64,000 bases of DNA from Devosia sp. A8/3-2 (GTDB lineage Bacteria; Pseudomonadota; Alphaproteobacteria; Rhizobiales; Devosiaceae). The position numbers and the translations under genes were made by a program. The stretch covers positions 620,001 through 684,000 of the forward strand of contig CP104974.1 in the NCBI GenBank assembly GCA_025452255.1, in the 5' to 3' direction. The notes beneath the pieces are model-generated. The model saw only the letters and a list, made by a program, of their open reading frames with translations, had not been told where the DNA came from and did no database searches. Below, one piece after another: positions 10,643 to 54,125 of the stretch. The first letter of the stretch is position 1. Every line of letters begins with the position of its first letter.

Positions 10643-12252
10643 CTAAATCTCGTAGCGATCCGTCGAATCCTCGACCGGCCGATAGACGAAATAATCAAAA
10701 TCCGCCGGGCTGGCCGTACCGTTGAGATCATGCGCGGCCATGCCGACAAAGGCGCCGGTGAAGCTGCCATGGGCACGGTGGCCACCGCATTCGTCCGAGA
10801 GGATCGAGGCGTCGAGTACCGGGCCGATAGGCTGCAGGTCCCGGCCTTCCAGCGCATAGAAGAATTGCAGCTTTGGCCCTCGAATGCTCAGCGCCAGCTT
10901 GACCTTGCCTGTGTTGGGAATCTGCACCGGATCGGCCGGGAAGCGCAGATTGCCGTCGGGCCAGCTCATTTCCGAGGTCAGCAGCAGCAGTTCGCGCTGG
11001 CCGTCGGAATGGGCGGTGACGGCCAGATAGAAGAAATTGTAGCGGCTGTAATAGGCGGTAAGGCCCGCCATGGTGCGCTCGTCGGTGGCAGGGAAATCGA
11101 CAACCGTCTCGGCATCATAGGAAAAATGCGTCTGGCGGCGCGCGACGAGGGATTGCTCGAACCGAGAGCCGATCGACTCACGGCCAAACAGACGCAGCTT
11201 GTTGTCTTGAAGGGCAAAAATCCGGTCGGGCTCTGGCGTGCGCAGCCATTGGAAGTCTTTGTGCAGCGCCTTCGAACGTGTAGCGCTGCTCGGTCCAGTA
11301 TTTGGCAGTGTCAGAACGTGCCGGGCACCTCGACATGCAACGAGGGCACTGGCCCGTGTTTCACGTGAATCCAGTCGTCTTCGCCCCAATAGGCCTCTCG
11401 GATCGCGGTTTCGCGACCTAGCACGCAACGGCGGTTTTGCGTGATGGGGCGGCCGGTGAGGTGGACCAGATAGGTCTTGCCCTCGGGCGTTTCGACCAGA
11501 TCGCCATGGCCGGCGCGCTGCAAAGCGGCAAAGGGCGCGTCCTTGGAGGTGAGGATGTGCTTGTCGGGATGGGTCTCGTAAGGCCCCCAGATATTGCGCG
11601 AGCGCGCAAAGGTCACGGCATGGTCATAGGCGGTGCCGCCCTCGGCGGTCAGCAGGTAATACCAGCCGTTTCGTTTGTAGAGATGCGGGCCTTCGACCAG
11701 CTTGAGGTCGGTGCCCTGATAGATATTCTTGATCGGGCCGACGAGCTTGCCCTGCGCGGGATCGAATTCCTGTAGCGCAATCCCAGCGAATTTCAGCGGC
11801 CGCGTGCGATGGTCCCACAGCATGTTGACGAACCACTTCTTGCCATCGTCATCGTGGAACAGCGAGGGGTCGAAACCCGAGGAATTGGCATAGATGGGAT
11901 CCGACCGGGGGCCTTCGATACTGGGCGCGGTGACGATGTAATTATGCGCGTCCTTGAACGAGCCGTCCTTGCGCTTGACGTCGGTATAGACCAGCCAAAA
12001 TTTTTCCCCGTCATGGGTGAGGCAGGGCGCCCAGACGCCGCAGCTATCGGGATCGCCGCGCATGTCGAGCTGGGCTTTGCGCGTCAGCGGGCGGGTGACC
12101 GAGTCCCAATTGGCGAGGTCTTTGGAATGGTGGATCTGCACGCCGGGGAACCATTCGAAGGTGGAGGTGGCGATATAGTAATCGTCGCCCACCCGCAGGA
12201 TCGAGGGGTCCGGGTTGAAGCCCGGCAAGATGGGATTGGTGATCTGGGACAT
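10643..12252 (-). CDS. Glycoside hydrolase family 43 beta-xylosidase (frameshifted)
   Basis: Predicted to release xylose (or arabinose) from xylo-oligosaccharides. The five-blade GH43 domain is clear: NPILPGFNPDPSILRVGDDY at the start carries the catalytic-base aspartate, SGFDPSLF the pKa-modulating aspartate, and KLVEGPHLYK the general-acid glutamate. The frame breaks near 11315 and 11275, between VPSLHVEVPGT and the beta-sandwich C-terminal domain that begins around ALHKDFQWLRTPE; this two-domain layout matches beta-xylosidases of about 535 residues, the joined length here. No signal peptide, so it acts on imported oligosaccharides. It lies downstream of xylB-xylA on the same strand and supplies their substrate. 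Confidence 0.9.
11358..11371 (+). repeat. parS-like 14-mer GTTTCACGTGAATC, copy 1
   Basis: Exact copy inside the GH43 coding region, where the minus strand reads it as ATT-CAC-GTG-AAA, so the codon frame differs from the other genic copies. See the finding on this motif. Confidence 0.85.
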
Positions 12253-12279
12253 GTTTCCTCCTCCCCGCCACCGTCTTGC

Positions 12280-12390
12280 CTTCTCCCCTTGTGGGAGAAG
12301 GTGGCGCGCAGCGCCGGATGAGGGGTCTGCGATGGTTGAGCGAACCCCTCACCCGCCCGTCGGGCACCCTCTCCCACACGGGGAGAGGGA
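12280..12390. repeat. Paired hairpin repeat of the CTCTCCC...GGGAGAG type
   Basis: Two arms: CTTCTCCC-cttgt-GGGAGAAG at 12280-12300 and CCCTCTCCC-acac-GGGGAGAGGG at 12368-12390, joined by about 65 bases. It fills the gap between the xylA stop and the GH43 start and could fold as two stems or one long one. Related sequence is seen at 31652-31675, 39433-39468 and 56087-56110. Confidence 0.75.
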
Positions 12391-12406
12391 AGGGTTCAGA
12401 GTTTGA

Positions 12407-13713
12407 TCAGACGAAGCGGTTGACCGGGTTTTCGAGATATTCTCGGCGGCCGGACTTGGGCTGCGGGTTGATGCCATCGGCATGAACCTTGGCGGCGATG
12501 TCAGCCGGGCTCAGCTTGCCGGCAAGGATGTCCTTGCCCGAGCCATTGTCCCAGCCGGCATAGCGGCCATCGAGCAGCTTGTCATATTCGCCATCCTCGA
12601 TCAGGGCGACGGCGCCCTTGAGGCCGCGCGCCGTGGTGTCGAGACCCGGGATGTGGCCATGCAGCAGGTCTGCGGGGTCCAGCGACTGGCGGCGCACCTT
12701 GGCGTCGAAGTTGAAGCCGCCCTTACCCAGACCGCCCTGCTTGAGGATGTAATAGAAGGCCAAAGCCATTTCACCCGCATTGTTGGGGAAGTGGTCGGTG
12801 TCCCAGCCGGACTGCAGATCGTTGCGGTTGGCGTCGACCGAGCCGAGCTGGCCCAGCGAAGAGGCAACAGCCAGTTCATGCTCGAAGGAGTGACCGGCAA
12901 GGAAAGCGTGGCCAACCTCGATATTGCACTTCACCTTCTTTTCGAGGCCGTATTTCTGCAGGAACCCAAACACCGTGGCGACGTCGAAATCGTACTGGTG
13001 CTTGCTCGGCTCCTGTGGCTTGGGCTCGATCAGGATCTGGCCCTTGAAGCCGATCTTTTCGGCATGCTCGATGACCAGATGCAGGAAGCGGGCCATCTGG
13101 TCCTGCTCTCGGCCGATCTTGGTATTGAGCAGGGTTTCGTAGCCTTCGCGGCCGCCCCAGAGCACATAGTTCTCGCCGCCCAGTTCATTGGTCAGCTCGA
13201 GCACGGCCTTCACCGGCCGGCGGCATAGGCGAAGATTTCCGGATCTGGATTGGTGGCGGCGCCCGCCATATAGCGGCGGTTGGAGAACAGGTTCGCGGTG
13301 CCCCAGAGCAGCTTCTTGCCGCTTTCCTGCATCTTGCTGGCCAGAATGTCGCCGATGACGCGCAGGTTCTTGTTGCTCTCCTCGAGCGTTGCGCCTTCGG
13401 GGGCCACGTCGACGTCATGGAAAGCAAAGAAGGGCACGTCGATCAGGTTGAAGAATTCAAAGGCCACTTCGGCCTTGAGCTTGGCGCCTTCCAGACCCTT
13501 GTCGAACCGAGGGCGGTCGAAGGTCCGGCCGCCGAACGGGTCGCCGCCTTCTCGGGCAAAGGTGTGCCAATAGGCGATGGCCGGGCGGATATGGTCTTCC
13601 ATCCGCTTGCCGGCGATCACTTCGTCCTTGTTGTAATGACGATAGGCCAGCGGGTTCTTGCTGGCAGGGCCTTCATACTTGACTCGGCTTAGGCCCTTGA
13701 AAAAATCACTCAC
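12407..13713 (-). CDS. xylA: Xylose isomerase (one frameshift)
   Basis: Converts D-xylose to D-xylulose, a metal-dependent TIM-barrel enzyme. The catalytic histidine region is [14 protein letters not shown], metal ligands lie in [16 protein letters not shown] and SVDANRND, and [15 protein letters not shown] is present (the family more often has Asn where this has Gly at IEVGHA). The start is the GTG at 13713, seven bases after a GAGGAGG ribosome binding site; the ATG-less start also overlaps the xylB stop as GTGA. A frame break at about 13215 (FAYAA | [13 protein letters not shown]) splits the gene; the joined length of about 435 residues is exactly normal. Confidence 0.94.
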
Positions 13714-15171
13714 GAAATTGCCTCCTCGATGGCGGGGTAAAGGGCGCGATAGCGCATATTGATCGGAATAGGCGGCCGACAGGCTTCTGTCGGGCGCGAT
13801 GACGGTTTTGATCGGCGGCATGGTCATGATGTCGGCCGGATTGGCGCCGGTGGCGGCGCAAAGGCCGAGCCGGGCTGCGCCCAGCGCACCACCGAAATCG
13901 CCGTCCTCGGGGAGGGCGATTTCCATATCGAGATTGGTGGCCAGCAGCTTGAGCCAGAGCGCGGATTTGGAACCGCCGCCGACGGCCAGCAGGCGGTCGA
14001 TTTTGGTGCCGGCATCGGAGAGGACACGCTGGCAATCGCGCATGGCGAAGGTCACGCCTTCCATGACGGCTCGGGCCAGTTGTGCCGGCTCGGTGCTTTG
14101 GCTCAAACCAGTGAAGGCGCCGCGCGCCTTGGCATTGTTATGCGGGGTGCGCTCACCCGACAGGTAAGGCAGGAAAATTTCCTCGCCGGGACCCTTGAAG
14201 CCTGCTTCGGCGGCGCAGGAAAGATCGGCCTGTTTCTGGCCGGTGATGCGGGCGAGCCAATTGAGGCTGTCGGTGGCCGACAGGATCACCCCCATCTGGT
14301 GCCGGGTATCGGGAATGGCGTGGCAGAAGGCGTGGACGGCGCCCTTGGTATTGGGGCGGAAACGATCGTTGGAAACAAACAGCACGCCCGAGGTGCCCAG
14401 CGAAACAAAGCCTTCGCCCGGCCGGATGGCGCCGATGCCGCAGGCCGAAGCAGCGTTGTCACCAGCGCCGCCGGCAATCACCACATCGCCCGTCATGCCC
14501 CAACGGGCGGCCAGCTCACGCTTGAGGCTGACGGCGGGGGCCGAGCCTTCAACGAGGCGCGGCATGTGCGAGCGATTGAGGCCGGTGACGGCCAGCAATT
14601 CATCCGACCAATCGCGCTTGGCGACGTCGAGCCAGAGCGTGCCGGCGGCGTCGGACATGTCCTCGATATGCTCGCCGCTCAGCAGCAGCCGCACATAGGC
14701 CTTGGGCAGCAGCACCTTGGCGATTTTGGCGTAGATTTCCGGCTCATGCTTGCGCACCCGGGCAATTTTGGGAGCGGTGAAGCCGGGCATGGCAATATTG
14801 CCGGCAATGTCGCGCAGGCTTGGGAGCGCCGCTTCCATCTCAAGGCACTCGGCGGCCGAGCGGCCATCGTTCCACAGGATAGAGGGGCGGAGCACTTCGT
14901 CGCCTTTGCCCAGCAGCACCGCGCCATGCATGTGACCAGACAGGCCAATGCCGCGCACTTTGGTCAGTTCGGCTGGATGACTGGCTTTGAGCTTGTCCAC
15001 TGCGGCGAGCGTCGCCGTCCACCAATCATTGGGGTTCTGTTCGGACCAGCCGGGATGGGGCCGCACGGGCTCGACGGCCGGGGCCGAAGCATCCCCAATG
15101 GGCTTGCCATTATCGTCGATCAGCAATGCCTTGACACCGGACGTGCCGATATCGATGCCGAGAAAAGTCAT
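13710..15171 (-). CDS. xylB: Xylulokinase (one frameshift near the end)
   Basis: Phosphorylates D-xylulose, feeding the pentose phosphate pathway. FGGY-kinase features: [18 protein letters not shown] at the N-terminus, [15 protein letters not shown] with the substrate region, [12 protein letters not shown], and the C-terminal nucleotide motif [16 protein letters not shown]. As read, the frame runs straight on into xylA to make an apparent 650-residue fusion. One base out of step near 13760 explains this: in the adjacent frame the kinase ends [14 protein letters not shown] with a TGA that overlaps the GTG start of xylA by four bases, so the fusion is an artefact. Length about 487 residues. Confidence 0.93.
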
Positions 15172-15206
15172 GAGGCACGTACCTCATTGGCGGTCACAAA
15201 CAACAT
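15168..15206 (-). CDS. Possible 12-residue leader ORF upstream of xylB
   Basis: An ATG at 15206 follows a good Shine-Dalgarno sequence (gggaggacg) and opens a 12-codon frame, [12 protein letters not shown], whose TGA overlaps the ATG of xylB in an ATGA junction. The better ribosome binding site belongs to this short ORF; xylB itself has a weaker TGAGGT about ten bases before its ATG. This could be a translational-coupling leader. It could equally be chance, or a mis-start created by an indel. The surrounding 15172-15262 gap between the regulator stop and xylB holds nothing else obvious. Confidence 0.35.
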
Positions 15207-15262
15207 CTGAACGTCCTCCCGGCCCATTTTGGGGCCACGCCGGTTTGGTGATGGCGTGCTTC

Positions 15263-16306
15263 TTAGCGCAGATTGTCGCGCAGGAAAATCCCGATTTCAA
15301 TGGGGGCATTGCCGGAAAGCCCATTGCCTCCCAAAGCCAGAGCCCGCGCCGCCGCAATCGCCTGCCGAATTTCGCCATCCGGATTCTGGTCGAGCACCAC
15401 GTCAATCGCCCCGCCAACAAGGCCTTGCCGTGTCGCGGCGGTCAATTCATGGGCGATGACGCGGATGGCGCCGGCCCGCCCGGAATTATCCAGCGCCTTG
15501 ACCAGCCCGGTATTGCCCGCGCCCAAATTGTAGAGCCCGGCCAGATCGGGATGCTCGGCCAGCAGGGCTGCGACAATCGATTCGGTCTGGGAAGCTTCGT
15601 CATGCCCTTCAAGCGGCCCCACCACGGCGATGGTGGAAAATTCGGCCGCCAATGCCGCATGAAAGCCGGCCGGGCGATCGGAGTGATCACGCAGATGCAG
15701 CGAGCCGGCGATCAATGCTACCTTGCCGCCCTGCGGCAGGAACCGACCCAATAGGGACGCGGCGGTGCGTCCGGCAGCAACATTGTCGATGCCGATGAAA
15801 TGGCGCCGCTGCGAGCCGGGCAGGTCCGACACCGGGGTGAGCACGGCAATGTCGCGGCGTGTAGCGGCATCGACCGCAGCGAGCACGGCGGCATCTTCAC
15901 CCGCCACGATCACCGCGCAATCGCAGGTTTTCGCATCGAGCCCATCCAGCGCCCGGGCGAGGGCCGCGCCATCCAGCGCCTTGACCCGTAGAATCTGGAT
16001 ATGTACGCGATCGCTCAGGGCCGGCGCGGTCCAGCGCTCGATCGCCTCGGCCGAGCTGGCCATGAAGGCATTGGAGCCATCGGGAATAATGAAAGTAACA
16101 CCGATATCGCGGGCGCGGGCCAATAGGGATGCCGACAGATCGCGATGAAAACCGATCTCGGCAATGGCCGCTTCGACCTTTTCGACGGTCGCCGCACGCA
16201 CGCCGGGGCGGCCATTGAGCACGCGATCAACCGTGGCCAGCGATACGCCAGCCACTCGCGCCACGTCATGGACGGTGACGCGCCGTCTGCCACCGATCTC
16301 ATTCAC
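15263..16306 (-). CDS. LacI family transcriptional regulator, probable xylose/pentose regulator
   Basis: A 347-residue intact regulator. The LacI helix-turn-helix is textbook: VTVHDVARVAGVSLATVDRV followed by LNGRPGVRAATVEKV, residues about 10-45. The rest is a periplasmic-binding-protein-like sensor domain (VTFIIPDGSNAFM, then GLYNLGAGNTGLVKAL), as in regulators that bind free sugars. It is 91 bases upstream of xylB on the same strand and divergent from galM, so control of xylBA-GH43 and perhaps galM is the natural reading. Its own ligand cannot be told from sequence. I found no convincing palindromic LacI operator in either adjacent gap. Confidence 0.87.
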   Translation of the reverse strand: MNEIGGRRRVTVHDVARVAGVSLATVDRVLNGRPGVRAATVEKVEAAIAEIGFHRDLSASLLARARDIGVTFIIPDGSNAFMASSAEAIERWTAPALSDRVHIQILRVKALDGAALARALDGLDAKTCDCAVIVAGEDAAVLAAVDAATRRDIAVLTPVSDLPGSQRRHFIGIDNVAAGRTAASLLGRFLPQGGKVALIAGSLHLRDHSDRPAGFHAALAAEFSTIAVVGPLEGHDEASQTESIVAALLAEHPDLAGLYNLGAGNTGLVKALDNSGRAGAIRVIAHELTAATRQGLVGGAIDVVLDQNPDGEIRQAIAAARALALGGNGLSGNAPIEIGIFLRDNLR

Positions 16307-16426
16307 GGCACTTTCCTTCCCTCATTAGGCGTACACTCGGCACCGCCCGAGAAAAGGTCAAGTCCGACATTGCAGGGCGCCGAGAAAGCGCGCTAGACCA
16401 TAGCCGCCAAAACCCGGAGGGGCAGC

Positions 16427-17437
16427 ATGACCATTGCGGTATCGACATTCGGCGAACACGCAGGCAAGCGGGTGGATCAGTTCCGCCCGGTGAGCGATAC
16501 GGGCGTTGAAGTCGACCTGATCGGCTATGGCGTGGTGGTGCGCGACTGGCGCGTGCCGGTGGCCGGGGCCCTGCGCTCGGTGGTGCTGGGCTTTGATACA
16601 TTCGATGCCTATCCCGCCCATAGCCCCCATCTTGGCTCGCTGGCCGGGCGCGTTGCCAACCGCATCAAGAATGCGTCCTTCGATCTTGACGGCAAAACAT
16701 ACAACCTGCCCGCAAACGCCGGCAATCTGCAGCTGCATGGCGGCGAACAGGGCTCGGGCCGGCAGGTTTGGGACGGGGAAGTGGACGAGGCCAATAACGC
16801 CGTGCGCTTCACCCATTTCAGCCCGGACGGGGCCATGGGCTTTCCCGGCAATGTCAATTTCACCGCGACCTACCGGCTCAAAGGCCATCGCCTGCTGCTG
16901 GAGCTGACCGCGACGACCGATCGGGCAACGCCGATTAGCCTCGTGCAGCACCAATATTTCAATCTGGGCACCGGGGCCGATGTGCTCGACCACAGCATTC
17001 AGGTCAATTCATCAGCCTATACGCTGCTGGGCGATGACACGGCGCCTACCAGGGCGATCCTGCCGTCGGCCGGCACGCAATATGACCTGCGCCAGCCCCG
17101 CATCATGCGCGACGGCGCTGGTGCACCGGTGGATTATGATATCGGCATGGTGCTCGACACCGGCCGCAATCATGCTGACCCTATCGCCACCGTGGTCGGG
17201 CCGGACAAGGCACTGACGCTCAAGCTGTGGAGCGACCGGCCGGGCGTGCAGGTCTATAATGGCGTGTGGACCGACATTCCGGTGCCGGGCCCGGGCGGCA
17301 AGCATTATGGCAAACATGCCGGCTTCTGCCTCGAAGACCGGGCCTTTGCCGATGCGGTGCACAATCCGCATTTCCCCAATGTGATCTATTCGCCCGAGCG
17401 GCCCTATAGCCATTGGTGCGAGTTCGAGATCGCCTGA
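16427..17437 (+). CDS. galM: Aldose 1-epimerase (galactose mutarotase family)
   Basis: Interconverts alpha and beta anomers of aldoses, here probably xylose or arabinose released by the neighbouring GH43 enzyme. Intact, 336 residues. Family marks: GSLAGRVANRIKNASFDLDG near residue 70, the substrate histidine in LQLHGGEQGSGRQVW, the second catalytic histidine in VQHQYFNLG, and the late GFCLEDRAFADAVHNPHFP with its acidic base. The start at 16427 has a ggagggg ribosome binding site seven bases upstream. It is divergent from the LacI regulator across 120 bases. No signal peptide. Confidence 0.93.
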   Translation: MTIAVSTFGEHAGKRVDQFRPVSDTGVEVDLIGYGVVVRDWRVPVAGALRSVVLGFDTFDAYPAHSPHLGSLAGRVANRIKNASFDLDGKTYNLPANAGNLQLHGGEQGSGRQVWDGEVDEANNAVRFTHFSPDGAMGFPGNVNFTATYRLKGHRLLLELTATTDRATPISLVQHQYFNLGTGADVLDHSIQVNSSAYTLLGDDTAPTRAILPSAGTQYDLRQPRIMRDGAGAPVDYDIGMVLDTGRNHADPIATVVGPDKALTLKLWSDRPGVQVYNGVWTDIPVPGPGGKHYGKHAGFCLEDRAFADAVHNPHFPNVIYSPERPYSHWCEFEIA

Positions 17438-17461
17438 CCGGCACGGGCCTGCGACAGAATC

Positions 17462-17493
17462 TGGCAGCAGTGACACGCGAATCACTGCTGCCA
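17462..17493 (+). terminator. Perfect 12-base inverted repeat downstream of galM
   Basis: TGGCAGCAGTGA and its exact reverse complement, separated by eight bases, starting 24 bases after the galM stop. There is no T-run on the 3' side, so an intrinsic terminator is only one reading; a regulatory palindrome in front of the epoxide hydrolase gene (start 17563) is another. Confidence 0.5.
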
Positions 17494-17562
17494 CGGCCTG
17501 TCAGCACGCGTGAATGAAGCTTTCCTCACGATGCAGCGTTGCTGCGACATGAGGAGAGACAA

Positions 17563-18679
17563 ATGACCCCTTTCACCATCGCTGTTTCCGACGCCGATAT
17601 TGCCGATCTCAAGAACCGGCTCGCCCGCACTCGATTTCCTTATGCCCCGGCCGATGCCGGCTGGGACGATGGCATAGACGACAAATTCCTGCGCTGATTT
17701 CCTCGCCTATTGGAGCAATAGCTACGATTGGCGCGCCGCCGAAGCCGGGCTCAACGCTTTCCCCCAATTCACCGAGGTGATCGAGGGTGAGCTGGTGCAT
17801 TTCGTCCATGTGCGCGGACGCGGCCAGACCAATGTGCCGCTCCTGCTGGCCAATGGCTGGCCATCCAATTTCGTCGAATTGCTGCCGCTGGTGCCGCTGC
17901 TCACCGAGCCGGTCGATGGCGTGGCCTTCGATGTGGTCATCCCGTCGCTGCCCGGCTTTGGCTTTTCGGGCAAGCCCAGCCGGCCCGGCATGAACCTGAC
18001 CCGGGTCGCCCCACTCTGGGCCGAGCTGATGAGCCGGCTCGATTATCCGAAATTTCTCGTATCCGGCTCCGATATGGGCGCCGGCGCCGTAATGGCGCTG
18101 GTGCGCGATTTTTCCGAAAGGCTGATCGGGGCGCATTACATCAATGTCTATTTCGGCTTTCCCAAGCCGGACGATCTCTCCCCCGAGGAAAAGGCCTATG
18201 TCGAGCGCGGCAATTACTGGGCCTTCGCGGAAGGCGCCTATGCCATGATCCGGGGCACCAAGCCCGCCACGCTGGCGGTCGGGCTCAACGATTCCCCGGC
18301 TGGGCTTGCCGCCCGGATCCTCGAAAAATATCGCACTCGGTCGGATAATGGTGGCGAGATCGGCAATGCCTTCGAATTCGAGGACTCGGCCACCATCCTG
18401 TCGGTCTATTGGTTCACCCAGACGATCGGCTCCTCCGTCCGGCTCTACAAGGAGGCTTTTGCCGATGCCGAACTGCCTAAAAAGCCGGCCCGCCACAATG
18501 TGCCCCATGCCATTCTCGTGCCGCCCGCCGACAATCCGGCGCCGCGCGCTCGGGGCGAGAGAAACCTCTGGAACATCGTGCGCTGGACCGAACTGAGCCG
18601 GGGCGGCCATTTCCCGGCGCTCGAAGTGCCCGAGGCGATGGCTCACGACATCCGTGCGTTCCATGGCCAGATCGCGTAA
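17563..18679 (+). CDS. Epoxide hydrolase, EHN-type (one frameshift)
   Basis: Alpha/beta-hydrolase fold protein with the N-terminal epoxide-hydrolase extension (FTIAVSDADIADLKNRLART, then YDWRAAEAGLNAFPQF). Oxyanion segment LLLANGWPSNFVELLPL, nucleophile elbow SGSDMGAGAVMALV with Asp as nucleophile, and a late HFPALEVPE with the catalytic histidine. The start ATG at 17563 has a gaggagag site before it. After DDKFLR a TGA at 17695-17697 interrupts; removing the T restores GAT-TTC (DFLAYWSNSYD). Joined length about 372 residues. Physiological substrate unknown. Confidence 0.88.
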
Positions 18680-18763
18680 TTCTGGCGCTGCGAGGCCCGC
18701 CATGCAGATGCTTGGCTCCGGCTCGGGAATCTGGCATCCAAGGGCGCCAGAGGAGAACGAACC

Positions 18764-19483: not shown

Positions 19484-19497
19484 GTTTCACGTGAATC
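19484..19497 (+). repeat. parS-like 14-mer GTTTCACGTGAATC, copy 2
   Basis: Exact copy in the 36-base convergent gap after the WYL regulator, just touching the stop of the cold-shock/DUF1294 gene. See the finding on this motif. Confidence 0.85.
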
Positions 19498-21419: not shown

Positions 21420-21433
21420 GATTCACGTGGAAC
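21420..21433 (-). repeat. Reverse-oriented near copy of the parS-like 14-mer
   Basis: GATTCACGTGGAAC on the plus strand, i.e. GTTCCACGTGAATC on the minus strand, one mismatch from the repeated 14-mer and the only copy in the opposite orientation. It begins six bases after the cfa stop, in the gap before the 75-residue gene. Confidence 0.6.
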
Positions 21434-21478
21434 ATTTATCCACAGCTATGTAAAACCGCGCCGAGCAGGCCGGCCAGC

Positions 21479-29446: not shown

Positions 29447-30300
29447 AGACTTCCTTGCGCTTGAGCCCGTATTTTTTGGTCACTTCGTCGACTGCCGCTC
29501 GCAGGGGCTGCTTTTCCATTTCCACGACAAGGTCCGCCTGCCAGTCGGCGGCGTCCGGGGTACTCGCCTCGGCGGCGCCAGCAACGACGATGACGGCTTC
29601 GCCCTTGGTTTCGGTATCGGCAAATTCGGCGGCCAGAGCCGGCAGGGTGCCACGATGGACGCGCTCGAACCGCTTGGTCAGCTCCAGCGCGACGGCCGCC
29701 TGCCGCTCGCCAAAGATTTCGGCCATGGCGGCGAGCGTGTCATCGAGCCGGCGGGGGCTTTCGTAAAACACCAAAGTTTCACGTGAATCCTTGAGCGCCG
29801 TAATGGCATTGGCGCGGGCGCCGGCCTTGTTGGGCAGGAAGCCGTGAAAGGCAAAAGCATCAGTGGGCAGGCCCGCGACGACCAGCGCCGAGAGCAGGGC
29901 CGAGGCACCGGGAATGGGGAAGACCGGCAGATTGGCTTCGGCCAAAGCGCGGATCAGCGGAAAGCCGGGATCGGACAGCAGCGGCGTGCCGGCGTCGGAA
30001 ATCAGCGCAATGGCTCGGCCGGAAGCGACGCGGGCGACGATGTCGTCGGCCTTGGCGCGCTCATTGTGTTCGTGCAGCGCCACCCGGCGCCCCTTGATGC
30101 CGTAATGATCGAGCAGGCGGGCGGACATGCGGGTGTCTTCGCACAGCACCACGGAGGCAGCGGCGAGGGTTTCCAGCGCCCTTATGGTGATATCAGCGCA
30201 AATTGCCGATCGGCGTCGCCACGACATAAAGGCCGGGGGCGAGGGGCGGAGCGGCAAAGGCGGTGCCGGCGATGAAATAGCCGGAGGAGGGTTCGGTCAT
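29412..30300 (-). CDS. rsmI: 16S rRNA (cytidine-1402-2'-O)-methyltransferase (one frameshift)
   Basis: Methylates C1402 in the decoding centre of 16S rRNA. YVVATPIGN near the start, VLCEDTRMSARLLDHYGI, SDAGTPLLSDPGFPLIR and TLVFYESPRRLDDTLA are family hallmarks of the tetrapyrrole-methylase fold. The start ATG at 30300 leads into an N-terminal extension, and an extra base at about 30193 (ttgcgc-T-gatatc on the minus strand) produces an in-frame TGA; in the next frame DITIRALETLAAA follows. Joined length about 295 residues. An exact copy of the parS-like 14-mer lies inside it. Confidence 0.92.
29776..29789 (+). repeat. parS-like 14-mer GTTTCACGTGAATC, copy 3
   Basis: Exact copy inside rsmI; on the coding strand it reads GAT-TCA-CGT-GAA (DSRE). 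See the finding on this motif. Confidence 0.85.
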
Positions 30301-39510: not shown

Positions 39511-39524
39511 GTTTCACGTGAATC
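39511..39524 (+). repeat. parS-like 14-mer GTTTCACGTGAATC, copy 4
   Basis: Exact copy in the 239-base gap between dnaK and the alpha/beta hydrolase gene; the same gap also holds the dnaK terminator and a CTTCCC...GGGAAGG repeat arm at about 39433-39468. Confidence 0.85.
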
Positions 39525-45912: not shown

Positions 45913-45952
45913 GCAGGGGGTCCGCCGGTGAGGAAATTTTCCGACGCCCGGT

Positions 45953-46543: not shown

Positions 46544-46583
46544 TGATCACATGAAGGAGCAGATATGTGAACATTGATAACAT
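46534..46583. promoter_or_regulatory. Two-copy operator candidate for the TetR regulator
   Basis: ATGTTGACATTGATCACAT (46534-46552) and ATGTGAACATTGATAACAT (46565-46583): 16 of 19 bases identical, starts exactly 31 bases (about three helical turns) apart. Each contains a small palindrome ATGT-N2-ACAT. The first copy covers the TetR start codon (46541-46543); the second precedes the DUF2214 gene. Autoregulation plus control of DUF2214 is the natural inference. Confidence 0.65.
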
Positions 46584-46603
46584 GGAGCGTTGAGGGCTCG
46601 CAA

Positions 46604-47059
46604 ATGGATATCGGACTCATCCCGGCCATTGCTCACCATCTGGCGGTCTTTGCCCCGGTCGGCATCCTCGCCGCCGAATTCGCCCTGCTGCGGCCGGGCA
46701 TTGCCGGCCCGCGACTCAACCAGCTGGCCCGGATCGATGGCGCCTATGGCGGGGTGGCGATGCTCGTGATCGCCGTCGGGTTCACCCGCGTCTTTTTCGG
46801 TGGCGTGGATGCCAGCTATTACCTCACCAATTTCGCCTTCTGGGCCAAGATGGCGGCCTTCGTCGTGGTGGGCCTGCTCTCGATCCAGCCGACCCTGTCG
46901 CTGGTGCGCTGGCGCAAGAGTCTGGCGAGCGAACCGGACTTTGCCCCGCCCGCCAGCGAAATCGCCGCGAGCCGAAAATTCGTGCATGGCGAAGTGGCGA
47001 TATTGGTGCTGATCCCGATTTTCGCCGCGGCCATGGCGCGGGGCTATGGGGCGGTCTAA
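46604..47059 (+). CDS. DUF2214 family membrane protein
   Basis: Intact, 151 residues, four predicted membrane helices (FAPVGILAAEFALL; GGVAMLVIAVGFTRVFFG; FAFWAKMAAFVVVGLLS; VAILVLIPIFAAAMA). Members of this family are small inner-membrane proteins without known function. Start ATG at 46604, preceded by ttgagggctcg. Its last codon region overlaps the convergent nth stop by four bases. Paired divergently with a TetR gene, it may be an inducible transporter or redox-related membrane protein; that is speculation from context. Confidence 0.85.
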   Translation: MDIGLIPAIAHHLAVFAPVGILAAEFALLRPGIAGPRLNQLARIDGAYGGVAMLVIAVGFTRVFFGGVDASYYLTNFAFWAKMAAFVVVGLLSIQPTLSLVRWRKSLASEPDFAPPASEIAASRKFVHGEVAILVLIPIFAAAMARGYGAV

Positions 47060-47731
47060 GTCCCCCGAGGCAGCGGCGATTTCGGCTCAAACCGGCACCA
47101 TTCGGCAATAGCGCAGCGCCAGCATTCGGGCTTGCGCGCCTTGCAGACATAGCGGCCGTGCAGGATCAGCCAATGATGCGCATGCAACAAATATTGCGGC
47201 GGGATGACCTTGAGCAGCGCCTGTTCCACCGCCAGCGGCGTCGCGCCGGGCGCTAGGCCCCGTGCGGTTGCCAACACGGAACAGATGCGTGTCCACGGCG
47301 ATGGTGGGTTGCTTGAACCAGATATTGAGCACCACATTGGCGGTCTTGCGGCCAACGCCGGGCAGGGCTTCGAGCGCCTCACGATCGTCCGGCACCTCCC
47401 CGCCGTGCCGCTCCAGCAGCAATTGGCTCAGCGCAAAGACATTCTTGGCCTTGGTGCGGAACAGACCAATAGTCTTGATCTGCCGCTCGATCTCTTCCTG
47501 ACCCAAAGCCACCATGGCAGCCGGCGAGGGGGCGAGTTCGAAGAGGCTTTTGGTGGCCTTGTTAACGCCGAGGTCGGTGGCCTGCGCCGACAGCACCACC
47601 GCCACCAAAAGGGTAAAAGCATTGATATAATCGAGCTCGCCCTTGGGCTCGGGCTCGATTTCATGAAACCGAGCGAAGATGGCTTCGACATCGGCTTTGG
47701 GCAGGCTCTTCACTTTTTTTGCCACGGCCAT
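47056..47731 (-). CDS. nth: Endonuclease III (one frameshift)
   Basis: DNA glycosylase/AP lyase for oxidised pyrimidines. Helix-hairpin-helix LEALPGVGRKTANVVLN with the catalytic lysine, then the catalytic aspartate in IAVDTHLFRVGNR, and the [4Fe-4S] loop CKARKPECWRCAIAEWC (C-x6/7-C-x2-C-x5-C). A one-base insertion near 47253 breaks the frame after NRTG; LAPGATPLAVEQALLKVIPP follows. Start ATG at 47731 (MAVAKKVKSLPKADV); an upstream in-frame ATG exists but overlaps the divergent gene. About 224 residues. Confidence 0.93.
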
Positions 47732-47777
47732 TCTCTCGACACTGATTCTGCGCCTATAGTCTTTCCCAGAGACAGCC

Positions 47778-48258
47778 ATGCCGATGCAAGCCACAACCAC
47801 TTCGCCGTTGTTTGCCGCTGAACTGACCCCCATCGCACGCTGGGACGGGGCGGCCTGCGGCTGGTCATTGCCCTCGTGGTTCTGCTGATCCTGTCGCCGC
47901 TCTTGCTGGCGGCGCCGGGCGGCGTCTGGCCGCTCCTCGTTTTCATCACCCTTGATGTTATCGCCATTGCCGCGACGCTGTTATTCTCCTCCCGCCGGGG
48001 CAAAGGCGTGAGATTATCCGGCTGTGGTCCGATCAGCTCGAAATCGTCAGCATGGATGCCAAGGGCGATCGCGTCTTGCGCCGGTTCAATCCCAAAAGTG
48101 TGCGCTCGGTGCTCGACCGGGACGTCAATGAAAAGACGCTGGCGCTGCATCTGCGCGCCAATCGGGACGAGATGGAAATCGGCGCCTTCCTCAATGGCGA
48201 TGACAAGGCCAGTTTCGCCAAGGCGTTCGGCACGGCCCTGCGCAAGGCGCGGGCCTAG
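47778..48258 (+). CDS. DUF2244 family membrane protein (two frameshifts)
   Basis: Small integral membrane protein. SPLFAAELTPHRTLGRGGLR, a break near 47830, two helices (LVIALVVLLILSPLLLAAPG; VWPLLVFITLDVIAIAATLL), a second break near 48008, then a cytoplasmic tail with EIVSMDAKGDRVLRRFNPKS and the family-typical EIGAFLNGDDKASFAKAFGT. About 160 residues. Function unknown. ATG at 47778, divergent from nth across 46 bases; the pairing of nth and DUF2244 is common in alphaproteobacteria. Confidence 0.85.
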
Positions 48259-48343
48259 CATCCTCGTGTCAAAACCGGGTCGCATTCACGGCCGCTAAAG
48301 CCTAGATCAAAGCCATGACGAAAAACCGATCATGGGTGTCCCG

Positions 48344-49214
48344 ATGAACCAGATCATGCCCCTCACGCCCGATACCGATTACAGAAACCATTCAGGCCGC
48401 CATCCGCTATCTCAGCGAGAACGGCCCCGACGTCGCCGACCTGCCGCGCTTTGGCCGCGCGCTGGGGCTGACCGAGCGGCAGCTGACCGATCTCTTCCGC
48501 CGCTGGTGCGGCCTATCGCCCAAGAGCTTTGCCCGGGCCGTGGCGCTCGACCATGCCAAGAGCCTGTTGCGGGCGAAGGAAAGCGTGCTCGACACCACTT
48601 ATGAAGTGGGTCTCAGCTCGACCTCGCGCCTGCACGATCTGTTCGTGGCCTATGAAGCCATGCCGCCGGGGATTTTCCGCGCCGGCGGCTCAGCCTCGAC
48701 ATGGTTTGGGGCGTCGGCCCCTCGCCCTTTGGCTCGGCCGTGGTCACCGCCACCGAATATGGCATGTCGGGCTCGGGCTTTGCCGATGCCAATACAACAG
48801 TCGAACAGGCCTTCGAGGACTCGGCCAATCGCTGGCCCAATGCCCGCTTCACCCGCAATGACGCCAAGGTGGCCCCGATGATCGCCCGGGCGTTCTGATC
48901 CGGCCCATTGGTCGGCCGATCGGCCGGTGCGGGTGGTGCTGATCGGCACCGATTTTGAGGTCAAGGTCTGGGAAACGCTGCTCAAGATTCCGGTGGGGCA
49001 GGCGACGACCTATTCGGCAGTCGCCAACCATATCGGCCGGCCCACGGCATCACGCGCAGTCGGGGCGGCGGTGGGCAAGAACCCGATCAGCTTCGTCGTG
49101 CCGTGCCATCGCGTGGTGGGCACATCAGGCGCGCTGACCGGCTATCACTGGGGCGTGCCGCGCAAGCGGGCGATTCTGGGCTGGGAAGCCGGCGTGATTT
49201 CGGCTGCGCATTAA
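48344..49214 (+). CDS. Ada-like AraC-HTH / O6-methylguanine-DNA methyltransferase (several frameshifts)
   Basis: Fusion of an AraC-type DNA-binding domain and a suicide methyltransferase that repairs O6-alkylguanine. HTH: ADLPRFGRALGLTERQLTDL and RWCGLSPKSFARAVALDHAK. The Ada-like middle (WGVGPSPFGSAVVTATEYGM) leads to the MGMT active site PISFVVPCHRVVGTSGALTG, with Cys in PCHR. Breaks: an extra A at 48383 (tac-A-gaaacc), near 48690 and near 48898. The N-terminal methyl-phosphotriester cysteine domain of true Ada is absent. Start ATG at 48344 or 48332. About 290 residues. Confidence 0.87.
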
Positions 49215-49228
49215 GTTTCACGTGAATC
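49215..49228 (+). repeat. parS-like 14-mer GTTTCACGTGAATC, copy 5
   Basis: Exact copy beginning at the base after the stop codon of the Ada-like gene. See the finding on this motif. Confidence 0.85.
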
Positions 49229-49241
49229 GGTGGGATCGGAG

Positions 49242-49355
49242 TACCCCCTCCTAGCCTCCCCTGATAGGGGGAGGGACCGCCTTGTGGCTAGGGCTCGATC
49301 GCGTTCCAAGAGTGGAGAGATCCCTCCCCTATCAGGGGGAGGTTAGGTGGGGGTA
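49242..49355. repeat. Long near-perfect inverted repeat (MITE-like or hairpin repeat)
   Basis: Terminal arms of about 35 bases, starting TACCCCCTCCTAGCCTCCCC and ending GGGGGAGGTTAGGTGGGGGTA, are reverse complements with about four differences, and flank 44 bases without a reading frame. Each arm also contains its own hairpin (CTCCCCTGATAGGGGGAG). Located between the Ada-like gene and the convergent gpmA stop, where it could also terminate transcription. Confidence 0.75.
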
Positions 49356-49360
49356 TCCCC

Positions 49361-49975
49361 TTAAATCTCGATCCGCGCTTCGAGCTGCCCCTCAGCCCCA
49401 ATATTATACACCGTGGGCTGACCCGTCCCGATCTCGCGCTTCAAGATCTGTTCCGGCGTCAGCCCTTCAATCGCCATCACCAGCGCCCGCAGCGAATTGC
49501 CATGGGCGGCGATCAGGATGGTCTTGCCGGCTTTCAGCAGCGGCAGGATCTCGGCGTCGTAATAGGGCAGGGTACGCGCAGCCGTGTCCTTCAGGCTCTC
49601 ACCACCCGGCGGGGGCACGTCGAAGGAACGGCGCCAGATCAGCACCTGCTCCTCGCCCCATTTCTCGCGGGCATCATCCTTATTGAGACCCGACAGGTCG
49701 CCATAATCGCGTTCGTTGAGCGCGATATTGCGGGTGATGGTGACATTGAGAATGTCCATCTCTTCCAGCATCAGGTCCAGCGTATGCTGGGCGCGGCGCA
49801 GGGCGGAGGTGTAATAAAGATCGGGCACGATGCCCTTGGCCTTGAGCGCCTTGCCGGTGGCGCGGGCTTCGCCAATGCCCTTTTCGGTCAGGTCCGGATT
49901 GCGCCAGCCGGTAAACAGGTTCTTGAGGTTCCACTCGCTTTCGCCGTGGCGCACGAGGATCAGGGTGCCGGTCAT
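49361..49975 (-). CDS. gpmA: 2,3-bisphosphoglycerate-dependent phosphoglycerate mutase
   Basis: Interconverts 3- and 2-phosphoglycerate in glycolysis. Intact, 204 residues, the short alphaproteobacterial form. The phosphohistidine motif is [13 protein letters not shown], then [20 protein letters not shown], the acid [15 protein letters not shown], and the second histidine [16 protein letters not shown]. Start ATG at 49975; it lies 17 bases after the dapB stop on the same strand. In Hyphomicrobiales dapB-gpmA is a conserved pair. Confidence 0.95.
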
Positions 49976-49992
49976 GTTCTGATTGTCCTTGT

Positions 49993-50803
49993 TCAGTCGG
50001 TAAGGCCGAGCACGTCGACCATGGAATAAAGCCCTGCCTTTTGCCCATAGGCCCAGAGCACGGCGCGGGCGGCGCCATTGGCATAGATGGTGCGATCCTC
50101 AGCCTTGTGGTTGAGCTCGATGCGCTCGGAGGGACCGGCCGGGATCACCATGTGATCGCCGATCACCGTGCCGCCGCGCAAAGCGGTAAAGCCGATCGTG
50201 CCGGGCTCGCGCGCACCGGTATGGCCGTCGCGGCCACTGACCTTTTGTCCTTGAGCGCCACATTGCGGCCCGAAGCTGCCGCCTCGCCCAGCATCAGCGC
50301 GGTGCCCGAAGGCGCATCGACCTTTTGGCGTGGTGCATTTCAAAGATTTCGACGTCGTAATCGGCCAGTGCCGCCGCGGCTCTGGCGCACCAGATTGGTC
50401 AACACCACCATGCCCATGGAGAAATTGCCCGACTTGACGATCCGCGCCCCGGCAGCACCAGACGCGGCAATCGCCGCATCATCGGCTTCCGAACAGCCGG
50501 TCGTGCCAATGATATGAACAAGCCCACGCGCCGCGGCCTTTGCGCCAAAGCGACACTGGCGCCGGGCGCGGTGAAATCAATGATCGCATCGGCGCCATCA
50601 AGCACCGCGTCGATATTATCGGTGATGGCGACACCCAGCGCGTCCCCGCCTACCAGCGATCCGGCATCCTTGCCGATAGAAGGGGCGCCGGGACGGTCGA
50701 TGGCAGCATGCAGCAGCAGATCAGGATGACTAGCGATGGCTTTGATATTGGCCGCCCCCATGCGCCCCCCAGCACCCGCCACAATCACCTTCAGCTGCGT
50801 CAT
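49993..50803 (-). CDS. dapB: 4-hydroxy-tetrahydrodipicolinate reductase (several frameshifts)
   Basis: Lysine/diaminopimelate pathway reductase. Nucleotide-binding loop [36 protein letters not shown], then (next frames) [32 protein letters not shown] with the catalytic Lys, and the late [20 protein letters not shown] with the substrate-binding region. Breaks near 50535, 50395, 50330 and 50245. Joined length about 270 residues, normal. Start ATG at 50803. Essential gene in most bacteria, so the density of breaks again points to errors. Confidence 0.92.
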
Positions 50804-50922
50804 CGTCCATCTCCGAATAGTCCTGTCGGCTATAGCAGCGGCAGATGCAAACGCCAACACCGCTACCGGAACACAATGGGCGTGTTAGTGTTGGAAAAAC
50901 GCAGACCAAATCAGGACGCGAC

Positions 50923-51273
50923 ATGACCATCACCAACGTCCCGGCCGGCATTGCCGTGGAAGACATTGGCGAGGCGATCGATTTTTACGAACGCCTGTTC
51001 GGACGCATGCCGGACGCAAGGCCGATGAATGATGTGGCCGAATGGAAAACACCCGGCGGCGGCTGGATTCAGATATTTACCGATGCCGACCGCGCCGGCG
51101 CCTCGGCGCTGACCCCGGTCGTCGATGACATTGCCGAGGAATTGGGCCGGCTGAGCCTGCACGGCATCGTGCCGGTCGCCAAGGCCATCGGCGACTTCTT
51201 CAAGACCGCAAAGTTCCGCGATCCGGATGGCAACCAGATCGTGCTGAGCCAGCCGCAACAGGGGACCTATTAA
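50923..51273 (+). CDS. VOC (glyoxalase-like) family protein
   Basis: Intact, 116 residues, single vicinal-oxygen-chelate module: GIAVEDIGEAIDFYERLFGR at the start and KFRDPDGNQIVLSQ at the end, the latter with the usual metal-ligand Glu position replaced by Gln. Lacks the His of glyoxalase I at its first strand, so enzymatic activity is uncertain; may be a binding protein. ATG at 50923, divergent from dapB. A small hairpin (AGGGG-cgttgtt-CCCCT) at about 51275-51291 separates it from the convergent coaA stop. Confidence 0.82.
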   Translation: MTITNVPAGIAVEDIGEAIDFYERLFGRMPDARPMNDVAEWKTPGGGWIQIFTDADRAGASALTPVVDDIAEELGRLSLHGIVPVAKAIGDFFKTAKFRDPDGNQIVLSQPQQGTY

Positions 51274-51288
51274 GGGGCGTTGTTCCCC

Positions 51289-52236
51289 TCAGACCCGTCG
51301 CAGCTGCACATCCTCGATCAGATGATCCTTGCCCTTCTTCAGCACCAGATCGGCCCGCCCGCGCGTCGGCAGCACGTTCTCGATCAGGTTGGGCAGATTG
51401 ATGGTCCGCCAGATCATGCGGCCGAATGTGGCCGCCTCATCCTCGCTCATTTCCACGATGCGGCGGAAATAGGAGGTTGGGTCCTTGAACGCGGTCTCGC
51501 GCAGGCGGAAGAAACGTTCGAGATACCAGCCTTCCAGATCATCGGTATCGGCGTCGATATAGACCGAGAAATCGAGATAATCGGAGGCAAAGACGATGGG
51601 TTTGCCATTCCGGGGCAATTCGCCGGGCTGCAGGATATTGAGCCCTTCGACGATGAGAATATCGGGCCGATCGACCAAAGCTTCCTCGCCCGGCACCACG
51701 TCATAGACCAGTGCGAATAGACCGGGGCTTTGACATTGGCCTTACCCGATTTGATATCGGCGAGGAACGAGACGAAGCGGCCGCGATCATAGCTTTCGGG
51801 AAAGCCCTTGCGCTCCATGATGCCGCGTTCGGTCAGCACCGCATTGGGATACAAAAACCCGTCGGTGGTGACCAGATCAACCTTGGGGCTCGAAGGCCAC
51901 CGCTGCAGCAGCGCCTGCAGGATACGCGCCGTGGTCGATTTACCCACCGCCACCGAACCGGCCACCCCGATGATGAAGGGGACCTTGTTGTCGGGGGTTT
52001 CGAGGAACCGCGCCGACACATTGTGCAGGCCCCTGGATCGCCTCGACATAGAATGAGAGCAGGCGCGTCAGCGGCAGATAAACTTCCTCGGCCTCTTCCA
52101 GCGAGATCGGATCGGACAGTGTGCGCAGCCGGGCGACATCCTCGTGGGTCAGCGTCATCGGCTCGTCGGCCCGCAGGGCGGACCACTCCGCCTTGGTGAA
52201 GTGGTGATAGGGTGCTGGCGCCTTGCGCTTGCTCAT
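51289..52236 (-). CDS. coaA: Type I pantothenate kinase (two compensating frameshifts)
   Basis: First step of coenzyme A synthesis. [20 protein letters not shown], then the P-loop [40 protein letters not shown] and the segment [14 protein letters not shown] are family-specific. Breaks are at about 52030 (one G too many) and about 51712 (CCTGG read as CTGG), after which [15 protein letters not shown] follows. Joined length 315 residues, exactly normal. Its ATG directly follows the hisE TGA without a gap, tying it to the histidine operon. Confidence 0.95.
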
Positions 52237-52552
52237 TCAGGTATTGTCCTTGCGGCCGGCCTTTTCGGCGAGGCCCGATTGGGCGGTACGGGCATCGAGT
52301 TCGGCCATGACATCGTCCAGCGCCACGCCCGAGGCGCGCAGCAATACCAGCAGGTGATAGAGCACGTCGGCGGCTTCCTTGGTCAATTCGGGCTTGTCGC
52401 GCGAGACCGCAGCGATCACCGCTTCGGTGGCCTCCTCGCCCAGCTTTTGCGCGCATTTTTCGATGCCGCGCGCAATCAGCTTGGCTGTGTAGCTGTCATC
52501 GGGCGAGGCAGCAGCGCAGCGCCGAGCGCTGGTCGAGAGTTTCAAGAGTCAT
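52237..52552 (-). CDS. hisE: Phosphoribosyl-ATP diphosphatase (one frameshift near the start)
   Basis: Second step of histidine synthesis. All-alpha MazG-like fold: [20 protein letters not shown] followed by [15 protein letters not shown] (metal-binding acidic residues) and [19 protein letters not shown]. The N-terminus MTLETLDQR starts at 52552 (or 52558) and breaks into the next frame near 52520. About 104 residues. Ends immediately before coaA. Confidence 0.93.
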
Positions 52553-52576
52553 GGGCATGAATGCCTCCAAATGCCG

Positions 52577-53374
52577 TTAGGCGGCCCTATCCATCCGCAC
52601 ATCCACGCCATGTTCGCGCAGATATTGCTTGGCCCGGGGAATGGTGAAGGTGCCGAAGTGGAAGATGGACGCCGCCAGCACGGCGCTGGCATGGCCCTCC
52701 TTCACCCCATCGACCGAGTCCTGCAGGCTGCCCACCCCGCCCGAAGCGATAACCGGCACATCCACCGCATCGGCAATGGCGCGGGTCAGCGCCGAGTCAA
52801 ACCCCGACTTGGTGCCGTCGCGATCCATCGAGGTCACCAGCAATTCACCGGCGCCGCGTTCGACCGGGCGGGTGGCAAATTCCACCGCATCGAGCCCGGT
52901 CGGCCGACGGCCGCCATGGGTATAGATTTCCCATTCGCTGCGATTGTCGCCACCCACCCGCTGGTCAAGCCGCTGCTTGGCATCGACCGAAACCACGATG
53001 CACTGATTGCCGAATTTGTCCGCCGCCCGTTCTGATGAAATCGGGATCGTTCACTGCCGCCGAATTGATCGCGACCTTGTCGGCCCCGGCCAGCAGGAGC
53101 TTGCGGATATCCTCAATGCTCCGCACACCGCCCCCACCGTCACCGGCATGAAGCAATGTTCGGCCGTGCGCTCCACCACGTCGAAAATGGTGTCGCGGCC
53201 CTCATGGCTGGCCGTGATGTCGAGAAAGGTCAATTCATCGGCGCCCGCCGCATCATAGGCGATAGCAGCCGCCACCGGATCACCGGCATCGATCAGATCG
53301 ACAAATTGCACGCCCTTGACCACGCGGCCGCCCATCACATCGAGGCAGGGGATCAGGCGGGTCTTGAGGGTCAT
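52577..53374 (-). CDS. hisF: Imidazole glycerol phosphate synthase cyclase subunit HisF (two frameshifts)
   Basis: Uses ammonia from HisH to form imidazole glycerol phosphate and [25 protein letters not shown] with the catalytic Asp, [20 protein letters not shown], then [20 protein letters not shown] and VVSVDAKQR; the second catalytic Asp is in [16 protein letters not shown]. Breaks at about 53139 (run of G one short) and 53033 (extra A, atc-A-gaacgg). 265 residues after joining. Its ATG overlaps the hisA stop by four bases. Confidence 0.95.
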
Positions 53375-54125
53375 GGCCGAAGCTCCCGATTCAGCTGGTC
53401 GGCTCGCAACAGCGCCAATGCTTCACGTGAATCAATCCGCCCGTCATAAAGCGCGCGGCCGGAAATGGCGCCTTCGAGCACGGCGAATTCCGGCTGGGTC
53501 ATGCGCTCGATATCGGCCATGGAGGCGAGCCCTCCCGAGGCGATCACCGGAATGGAGGTGGCGCGCGCCAGCTCAAGGGTGGACTCCCAATTGATGCCAG
53601 CCAGCACGCCATCGCGGTCGATATCGGTATAGATGATGGCCGCAACCCCAGCGCCTTCAAAGCGCTTGGCCAGCTCGATCACGCTGAGTTCGGACGTCTC
53701 CGCCCAGCCCTCAACCGCCACCATGCCCTTGCGCGCATCGATACCGACGGCACCTCTGGCCGGGCCACCTAGTGGCTGCTTCCTTGACCAAAGCCGGATC
53801 GCGCACCGCGACCGTGCCGAGAATGACCCGGGCCAGACCCTTGTCGAGCCAGCTTTCGATATGGCCGAGATTGCGAATCCCGCCGCCGAGCTGGACGGGG
53901 AATTTCACGGTTTTGAGGATGGCCTCAACCGCCGCGCCGTTGACGCTCTCGCCAGCGAAAGCGCCATTGAGATCGACGACATGCAGATATTCGAACCCCT
54001 GGTCCTCAAAGCTCTTGGCCTGCGCGGCCGGATCGTCATTGAACACGGTCGCTCTGGTTCATGTCGCCCAGCTTGAGACGGACGCATTGGCCGTCCTTGA
54101 GGTCGATGGCTGGAAAAAGGATCAT
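53371..54125 (-). CDS. hisA: ProFAR isomerase HisA (frameshifts)
   Basis: Isomerises the ProFAR intermediate of histidine synthesis. [20 protein letters not shown] at the start with the catalytic Asp; an extra A at 54055 (c-A-gagcg) precedes [37 protein letters not shown] and [20 protein letters not shown] follow. A second break lies near 53760; the end has [20 protein letters not shown] with the second catalytic Asp. About 250 residues. It overlaps hisH upstream and hisF downstream by four bases each. Confidence 0.95.
53420..53433 (+). repeat. parS-like 14-mer, one-mismatch copy (GCTTCACGTGAATC)
   Basis: Same orientation as the five exact copies, one base different (C for T at position 2). 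Inside hisA, coding strand GAT-TCA-CGT-GAA (DSRE), as in rsmI. Confidence 0.65.

Follow-up and report, generated by a model that had tools for sequence, protein, structure and literature searches.

Asymmetric, probable parS sites with a GANTC-containing half form a dispersed array near parAB in Devosia sp. A8/3-2 and its genus

The closest known counterparts of the sites described here are the parS sites of chromosomal ParABS systems, whose consensus we take to be TGTTTCACGTGAAACA. The present sites lie in and beside a window of 64,000 nucleotides from Devosia sp. A8/3-2 (C1:620001–684000, where C1 is contig CP104974.1; "the window" refers to this whole stretch), in which an initial annotation had noticed a repeated 14-mer, GTTTCACGTGAATC. 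They share with chromosomal parS the CACGTG core, one full half-site, the clustering around the replication origin (ori) and parAB, and a single ParB with parS-type residues, whereas here one half mostly reads GATTCAC, the sites spread over 69 kb, and a GANTC is kept. The degenerate parS sites 1–7 of Caulobacter crescentus (PMC5815017) are likewise several ori-near sites with one conserved and one variable half; there, a stretch of 5 kb holds the five strongest, whereas here one specific base creates a target of the methylase CcrM, the comparison being one of layout and not of the letters of the sites. According to PMC11514494 and PMC9040568, GANTC also occurs near replication and partition loci in the repABC replicons of Alphaproteobacteria, in a setting of cell-cycle methylation, but there it lies close to parS or in secondary-replicon promoters, and here inside chromosomal parS. 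The ParB of Pseudomonas aeruginosa also uses 7-base halves, although these are scattered over the genome (PMC10419367). No report of GANTC inside a chromosomal parS, or of the exact 14-mer, was found in a literature search that mostly excluded subscription papers and in which most papers were judged from listings. The sites are a real, conserved feature, best read as a variant class of parS, arranged as a dispersed array. We consider it probable, from the sequence data, that the motif serves the chromosomal ParABS system as its parS, in a long array close to ori, with one half read by ParB and the other shared by ParB and CcrM, and that ParB loading and methylation may interact.

Asymmetric sites around parAB

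The window is part of an assembly (G000) of 4,552,693 bases in two contigs, estimated to be approximately 84% complete. Scanning the window for GTTTCACGTGAATC returned five exact copies, all on the + strand, and two copies with one mismatch, at 53420 (+) and 21420 (−), at the positions that the initial annotation had given (Table 1). With up to two mismatches allowed, there were 13 matches (a near-palindromic copy may count on both strands), against a mean of 0.26 and a maximum of 3 in shuffled sequences. The whole assembly contained 10 exact copies, every one within C1:631358–700086, against an expectation from independent bases of 0.014 per 4.55 Mb (0.0002 per 64 kb) and no match across the whole assembly for the reversed pattern used as a control. 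Allowing one mismatch added the sites at C1:641420 and 673420 and two perfect palindromes, GTTTCACGTGAAAC, one in gidB (691431) and the other just past parB (693676). The array totals 12 asymmetric and 2 palindromic sites across 68.7 kb, with the CACGTG core present; the 12 sites lie one or two mismatches from GTTTCACGTGAAAC and lack the full inverted repeat, because their halves differ at position 2. Known parS sites may be degenerate as well, so this asymmetry marks a variant and does not speak against parS. A chance or coding origin, which the initial annotation had already discounted, was excluded by the shuffles, the expectation, the conservation in the genus, and the comparison of gene contexts; coding is no explanation because copies sit both in genes (GH43, rsmI, and a His_biosynth-family gene) and between genes. 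The spacing of approximately 8–10 kb and the single orientation that had been described held for the exact copies in the window, but not for the array: with all sites counted it is aperiodic, and regular spacing was dropped, and the orientations are 8 versus 4.

When the intact proteins of a genus relative were placed by tblastn, the gene order was secB (+), dnaQ (−), coaE (−), aroE (−), maf (−), hemE (+), rho (+), trmE (+), gidA (+), gidB (+), parA (+), parB (+), holA (−), and leuS (−), where the names are those we presume for these proteins, except SecB (Pfam) and ParB (NCBIfam). The proximity to oriC argued in the initial annotation from the gene content was therefore upheld by the block hemE-rho-trmE-gidA-gidB-parA-parB beside maf-aroE-coaE-dnaQ-secB, as was its suggestion of a specialised or degenerate parS near oriC and parAB, since all copies and the palindromes cluster around parAB. 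The ParB_N domain matched at one gene only in the assembly, in two pieces resembling a frameshift, and had no match on the second contig (approximately 515 kb by difference). Many genes, including parB and dnaK, appear to be split by frameshifts in the window and elsewhere on C1, which, together with the 84% completeness, suggests that the assembly is error-prone. The ParB orthologue of the relative G027 scored above the cut-off of TIGR00180 and below that of the Noc model, and the genus orthologue carries the helix GKSRSHVANT and an AGHAR motif, which are parS-type recognition residues by the roles assigned in PMC7383237. As for the methylase, the genome encodes one RAMA-domain protein, for which the best family was CcrM (NF050803; 528 bits, profile positions 49–349 of 350), below the model cut-off of 830 bits; among 14 control genomes, RAMA was found in Caulobacter alone. 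A GANTC lies inside the asymmetric sites of a genome that encodes a CcrM-like methylase (best family CcrM, below its cut-off). Judged by the gene order, the palindromes, the single ParB_N gene, and this methylase, the window appears to cover the left-hand part of a parS array close to ori. The maf-hemE gap (C1:684621–685062), read by eye, contains TTAA-N7-TTAA motifs, which we take to be CtrA motifs, and several GANTCs, and with the gene order this suggests an oriC at approximately C1:684.6–685.1 kb. Meanwhile, within the 240 kb read, cumulative GC skew reached its minimum near 605–615 kb; because this disagrees with the maf-hemE candidate, the orientation of the sites relative to replication is insecure.

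Matches to the motif occurred in all 36 same-genus genomes (3–18 strand-hits at no more than one mismatch, with palindromes counted twice and the lowest count from a 62%-complete genome), and eight of the genus, including this one, were compared closely over at least 100 kb each. Their 105 core-intact sites comprised 74 of the form GATTCAC/GTTTCAC, 14 palindromes, 8 GATTCAC/GCTTCAC, 5 GATTCAC/GTTCCAC, 2 GACTCAC/GTTTCAC, and one each of GATCCAC/GTTTCAC and GTTCCAC/GTTTCAC. If the halves were independent, 19 sites with A at position 2 in both halves (A2 halves) would be expected, and there was none. Six groups of sites were assembled manually from matches with at most two mismatches, which makes their presence, but not their identity, partly a product of construction. 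In five of them, the 14 bases were identical in all eight genomes, and the sixth, past parB, had a mean identity of 0.973, whereas the flanks of the six ranged from 0.45 to 0.88. The initial annotation had named absence of the motif from equivalent positions in relatives as counting against it, and at those positions several sites are kept in 8/8 genomes. The copy between hemE and rho retains its asymmetric form identically in 8/8, between flanks with identities of 0.45 and 0.50; since this form is kept with the palindrome one base away, we infer that the asymmetric base is under selection, and the asymmetry of the motif in general looks selected. To the left of hemE, approximate clustering by synteny gave 11 loci, 10 of which face the same direction (two-sided binomial test, 0.012), indicating a moderate strand bias of the array. 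The gidB palindrome (C1:691431) is preceded, two bases upstream, by GAATC in 8/8 genus genomes; a GANTC stood near 37 of 240 palindromic parS sites overall (9/77, 8/94, 10/54, and 10/15 by set), and such a neighbouring GANTC was rejected as a general rule, being consistent only for the gidB palindrome of the genus.

Substitutions at GANTC and distribution of the sites

The overlap of the motif with GANTC that the initial annotation had pointed out lies in the GATTCAC half, the GANTC occupying bases 10–14 of the 14-mer with base 12 free. Among 199 genomes sampled from the order Hyphomicrobiales, 90 contained the exact 14-mer (235 copies; 1 control match), and base 13 was T in 235 copies, G in 21, and C in 4 (4 control matches in the base-13 variant scan). 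In copies with T at base 13 (T13, corresponding to A2), base 12 was changed 15 times (13 GAGTC, 1 GACTC, and 1 GATTC) and base 14 never, whereas in those with A at base 13 (A13), base 12 was changed 3 times and base 14 27 times; Fisher's test gave 2e-9 by copy and 2e-5 by family (7/0/1/16, families counted by hand), and the control matches in the three substitution scans numbered 2, 2, and 3. Furthermore, in 129 fetched loci (80 named, 40 unnamed, and 9 of the genus), GANTC was intact in 236 of 237 A2 halves, which were changed 14 times at base 3, never at base 1, and once at base 4, whereas the 815 T2 halves were never changed at base 3, 13 times at base 1, and 24 times at base 4 (37 at positions 1 or 4). 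Position 2 was otherwise C (19) or G (1). The double-GATTCAC site, GATTCACGTGAATC, was absent from all 199 order genomes. The pattern of changes supports a putative link to CcrM in the form of a constraint on the sequence, and it lends indirect support to the methylation-sensitive mark proposed in the initial annotation, which is possible.

The 80 named ParB loci (3.4–20.9 kb each) were the best 80 among the matches listed, a non-random set with none labelled as the genus of the window. GANTC-type halves (24 GATTCAC and 8 GACTCAC) were found in 15 of them, all titled as Hyphomicrobiales (Brucella, Rhizobium, Mesorhizobium, Bartonella, Pseudovibrio, Cohaesibacter, Ancylobacter, and others); the remaining 65, of which 14 belong to the same order by title, had no such half and mostly palindromes instead. 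The ParB of five of six genomes of one family (f44) was 90–93% identical to that of the Cohaesibacter locus L118. In the Mesorhizobium-type loci L114, L115, L128, and L139, one to three GACTCAC halves in close copies lie approximately 3.5–4 kb before parB, beside or replacing GATTCAC. A Rhizobiales metagenome-assembled genome (L116) has twelve perfect palindromic parS sites in approximately 4 kb, located approximately 1.5–5.5 kb before parB. A difference in the ParB recognition helix was rejected as the cause of this distribution: by eye, no residue separated 34 named loci, and the helix reads alike whether or not a locus carries such sites (e.g., Brucella L110 and Oricola L113). The CcrM domain was detected in 194 of the 199 order genomes; of the five others, G149 and G211 (71% and 75% complete) have the motif, and G061, G082, and G163 do not. 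In a class sample of 289 genomes, 285 of them outside the order, the form GTTTCACGTGANTC gave 12 matches in 10 of these 285 genomes, against 4 control matches.

Individual sites and a composite with a DnaA box

Sites in the window differ in their persistence. The copy at 11358 has an orthologous copy in one of seven genus relatives compared (G021), and for that at 19484 no same-facing counterpart was clustered in the seven; an opposite-facing site of G032 maps near the point matching 19484. The rsmI site is present in rsmI with identical 14 bases in 8/8 genus genomes (flank column identities, 0.85 and 0.81), and the 53420 site is also identical in 8/8, in a gene that reads like hisA. By gene context, the dnaK-dnaJ gap holds one same-facing site in 8/8 genomes, with a GTTCCAC half in G032, although a stricter flank test missed these sites. 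A same-facing counterpart of the 49215 copy precedes the His_Phos_1 gene in 6/8.

Table 1. Asymmetric parS-type sites and the adjoining DnaA box, in window coordinates.
Feature	Position	Strand	Context
Asymmetric parS GTTTCACGTGAATC	11358–11371	+	Inside GH43 gene (C1:631358)
Asymmetric parS	19484–19497	+	Between WYL-regulator gene and DUF1294 gene, overlapping the last bases of the DUF1294 open reading frame
Asymmetric parS with GTTCCAC half (GATTCACGTGGAAC on +)	21420–21433	−	After cyclopropane-synthase-like (CMAS) gene
DnaA box TTATCCACA	21436–21444	+	Begins 16 bases after parS start
Asymmetric parS	29776–29789	+	Inside rsmI
Asymmetric parS	39511–39524	+	Between dnaK and dnaJ
Asymmetric parS	49215–49228	+	Between stop of a + strand open reading frame and 3' end of − strand His_Phos_1 (phosphoglycerate-mutase-like) gene
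Asymmetric parS with GCTTCAC half	53420–53433	+	In His_biosynth-family gene

The 21420 site is followed, after two bases, by a perfect DnaA box, TTATCCACA, the sole perfect box in the 240 kb read; the box consensus is the one we assume. An opposite-facing site was clustered at this position in 8/8 genus genomes, and the gene beside it varies, with CMAS adjoining in 5/8. The box stands at the same offset as exact TTATNCACA in six genus genomes (G000, G027, G010, G026, G015, and G034); in G021 it carries a single mismatch, and G032 lacks it. Three genus genomes carry a second box 12 bases further on. Across 960 kb of sequence from the genus, 12 TTATNCACA boxes were counted, 9 of them in this composite. 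A box lay within 40 bp of 6 of 112 genus sites, against 0.15 expected; the two remaining locus sets had none (0/243 and 0/181 sites). DnaA boxes and parS also occur together at the Caulobacter centromere, whereas here a single parS and a DnaA box form a unit whose spacer is fixed at two bases, 42–52 kb from the hemE-rho site. DnaA is reported to act at Caulobacter parS (Mera et al. 2014, as described in PMC6399470 and cited in PMC6667618).

Alternative explanations and a possible link to CcrM

At the level of sequence, the location of the sites, the single ParB gene, the conservation of the asymmetric form, the GANTC-specific pattern of changes, and the absence of double-GATTCAC sites are established. 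These sites could nevertheless be ordinary parS of lower affinity, with A2 being the substitution best tolerated by the ParB of this order and GANTC a by-product without a role; we regard this as possible but rather unlikely. Caulobacter has degenerate parS sites that retain one conserved half (PMC5815017), an affinity threshold would account for the lack of double-variant sites, and no correlation of site presence with CcrM presence was demonstrable, all of which would fit. However, the double change GACTCAC outnumbers the single change GTCTCAC (14 to 0 in the loci, with N changed 15 to 3 order-wide), and next to T13 GANTC always keeps its C (lost in 0/199), a position changed 27 times in the A13 background, so tolerance in binding alone would require special epistasis. 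The same pattern has to be read with several points that weigh against a role of CcrM. Kinship entered the substitution tests only through the family count; the 40 unnamed loci were mostly selected because they carry the motif, so that A2 halves are over-represented, although this does not obviously affect the contrast between positions; and the order-wide counts cover whole genomes, in which some matches may be other than parS (7 of the 27 last-base changes were seen inside fetched ParB loci). GTCTCAC, with N changed in the absence of A2 and hence no GANTC, occurs once each in G200, G141, and G105 of family f27 (GTTTCACGTGAGAC), and in one site of the genus the half reads GATCCAC and so lacks a GANTC. 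Outside the order, some matches may be real, at least the two that lie 12 kb apart in G468, and none of 51 named loci from other groups has a GANTC-type half. Because CcrM is near-universal and these 51 loci lack the half-site, CcrM presence does not predict the sites; within the order, too, no correlation is demonstrable, with the domain in 194/199 genomes. PMC11514494 likewise places CcrM-type methylation in nearly all Alphaproteobacteria.

The same-strand runs, with 10 of 11 left-arm loci facing one direction in the genus, could also point to a polar guide motif read by FtsK or another translocase, of the type of FtsK-orienting polar sequences (KOPS) or architecture-imparting sequences (AIMS), as the initial annotation had offered. 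This proposal was not sustained and is highly improbable: the 10 exact copies in 4.55 Mb are confined to 69 kb around parAB, with no chromosome-wide occurrence, the array is of mixed orientation (8 to 4), and the direction at trmE-gidA differs between families. Its other suggestion, that the sites serve a second ParB-like or Noc-like protein, would draw on the two-base difference between Noc and ParB sites (PMC7383237). Nevertheless, ParB_N lies at a single gene in the assembly (84% complete by estimate), and the variant base is position 2 and not the Noc positions 1 and 6, the sites keeping G1 and A6, which leaves this reading extremely unlikely, although a paralogue may lie in the part missing from the assembly. 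The strand bias might instead encode sister identity, the old methyl group lying on one particular strand in each sister and the mostly co-oriented sites making sister centromeres coherently different. By symmetry, one GANTC per parS would make hemimethylated sisters distinguishable and two would not, and the left-arm orientation (10/11 loci) agrees with this; we nevertheless find the proposal improbable, given the 8 to 4 orientation over the whole array, the opposite facing of the trmE-to-gidB sites, and the inheritance of orientation, which leaves few independent events.

Returning to an array shared by ParB and CcrM, one half of each site would be a standard ParB half (GTTTCAC, or GCTTCAC or GTTCCAC) and the other GATTCAC (GACTCAC in some relatives), tolerated by ParB and simultaneously a GANTC target of CcrM; one intact half would be kept, as two weak halves would not bind. 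ParB would bind these asymmetric sites, its binding or clamp loading may differ on fully methylated, hemimethylated, and unmethylated DNA, and/or bound ParB may shield the sites from CcrM. Most likely, the mechanism would be mutual, with methylation tuning ParB loading and ParB shielding the site. The position-2 adenine predicted to be methylated by CcrM adjoins guanine 1 of the half-site, the base that R173 contacts in Caulobacter ParB (PMC7383237), and the second target adenine lies opposite base 4; N6-methyladenine there may alter ParB binding. In Agrobacterium, which belongs to the same order, GANTCs near ori1 showed a lower methylation signal, read by the authors as hemimethylation until late CcrM action (PMC11514494); by the same logic, ori-near parS sites would stay hemimethylated after fork passage until CcrM acts late, and the array could report "just replicated" to the segregation machinery.

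An extension, that the Hyphomicrobiales centromere is epigenetically marked, with ParB loading dependent on CcrM, new and old as well as sister centromeres differing, and the DnaA-box fusion providing a second cell-cycle input, is unlikely in our estimation; sister centromeres would differ because each site has a single GANTC and those on the left arm mostly face one way. Methylomes are available for S. meliloti (PMC5172544) and A. tumefaciens (PMC11514494), both of this order. The proposed reading bears on how bacteria couple segregation to replication: if it is true, the centromere site would itself be a target of the cell-cycle methylase, giving a simple physical link between replication and segregation in 90 of the 199 sampled genomes.

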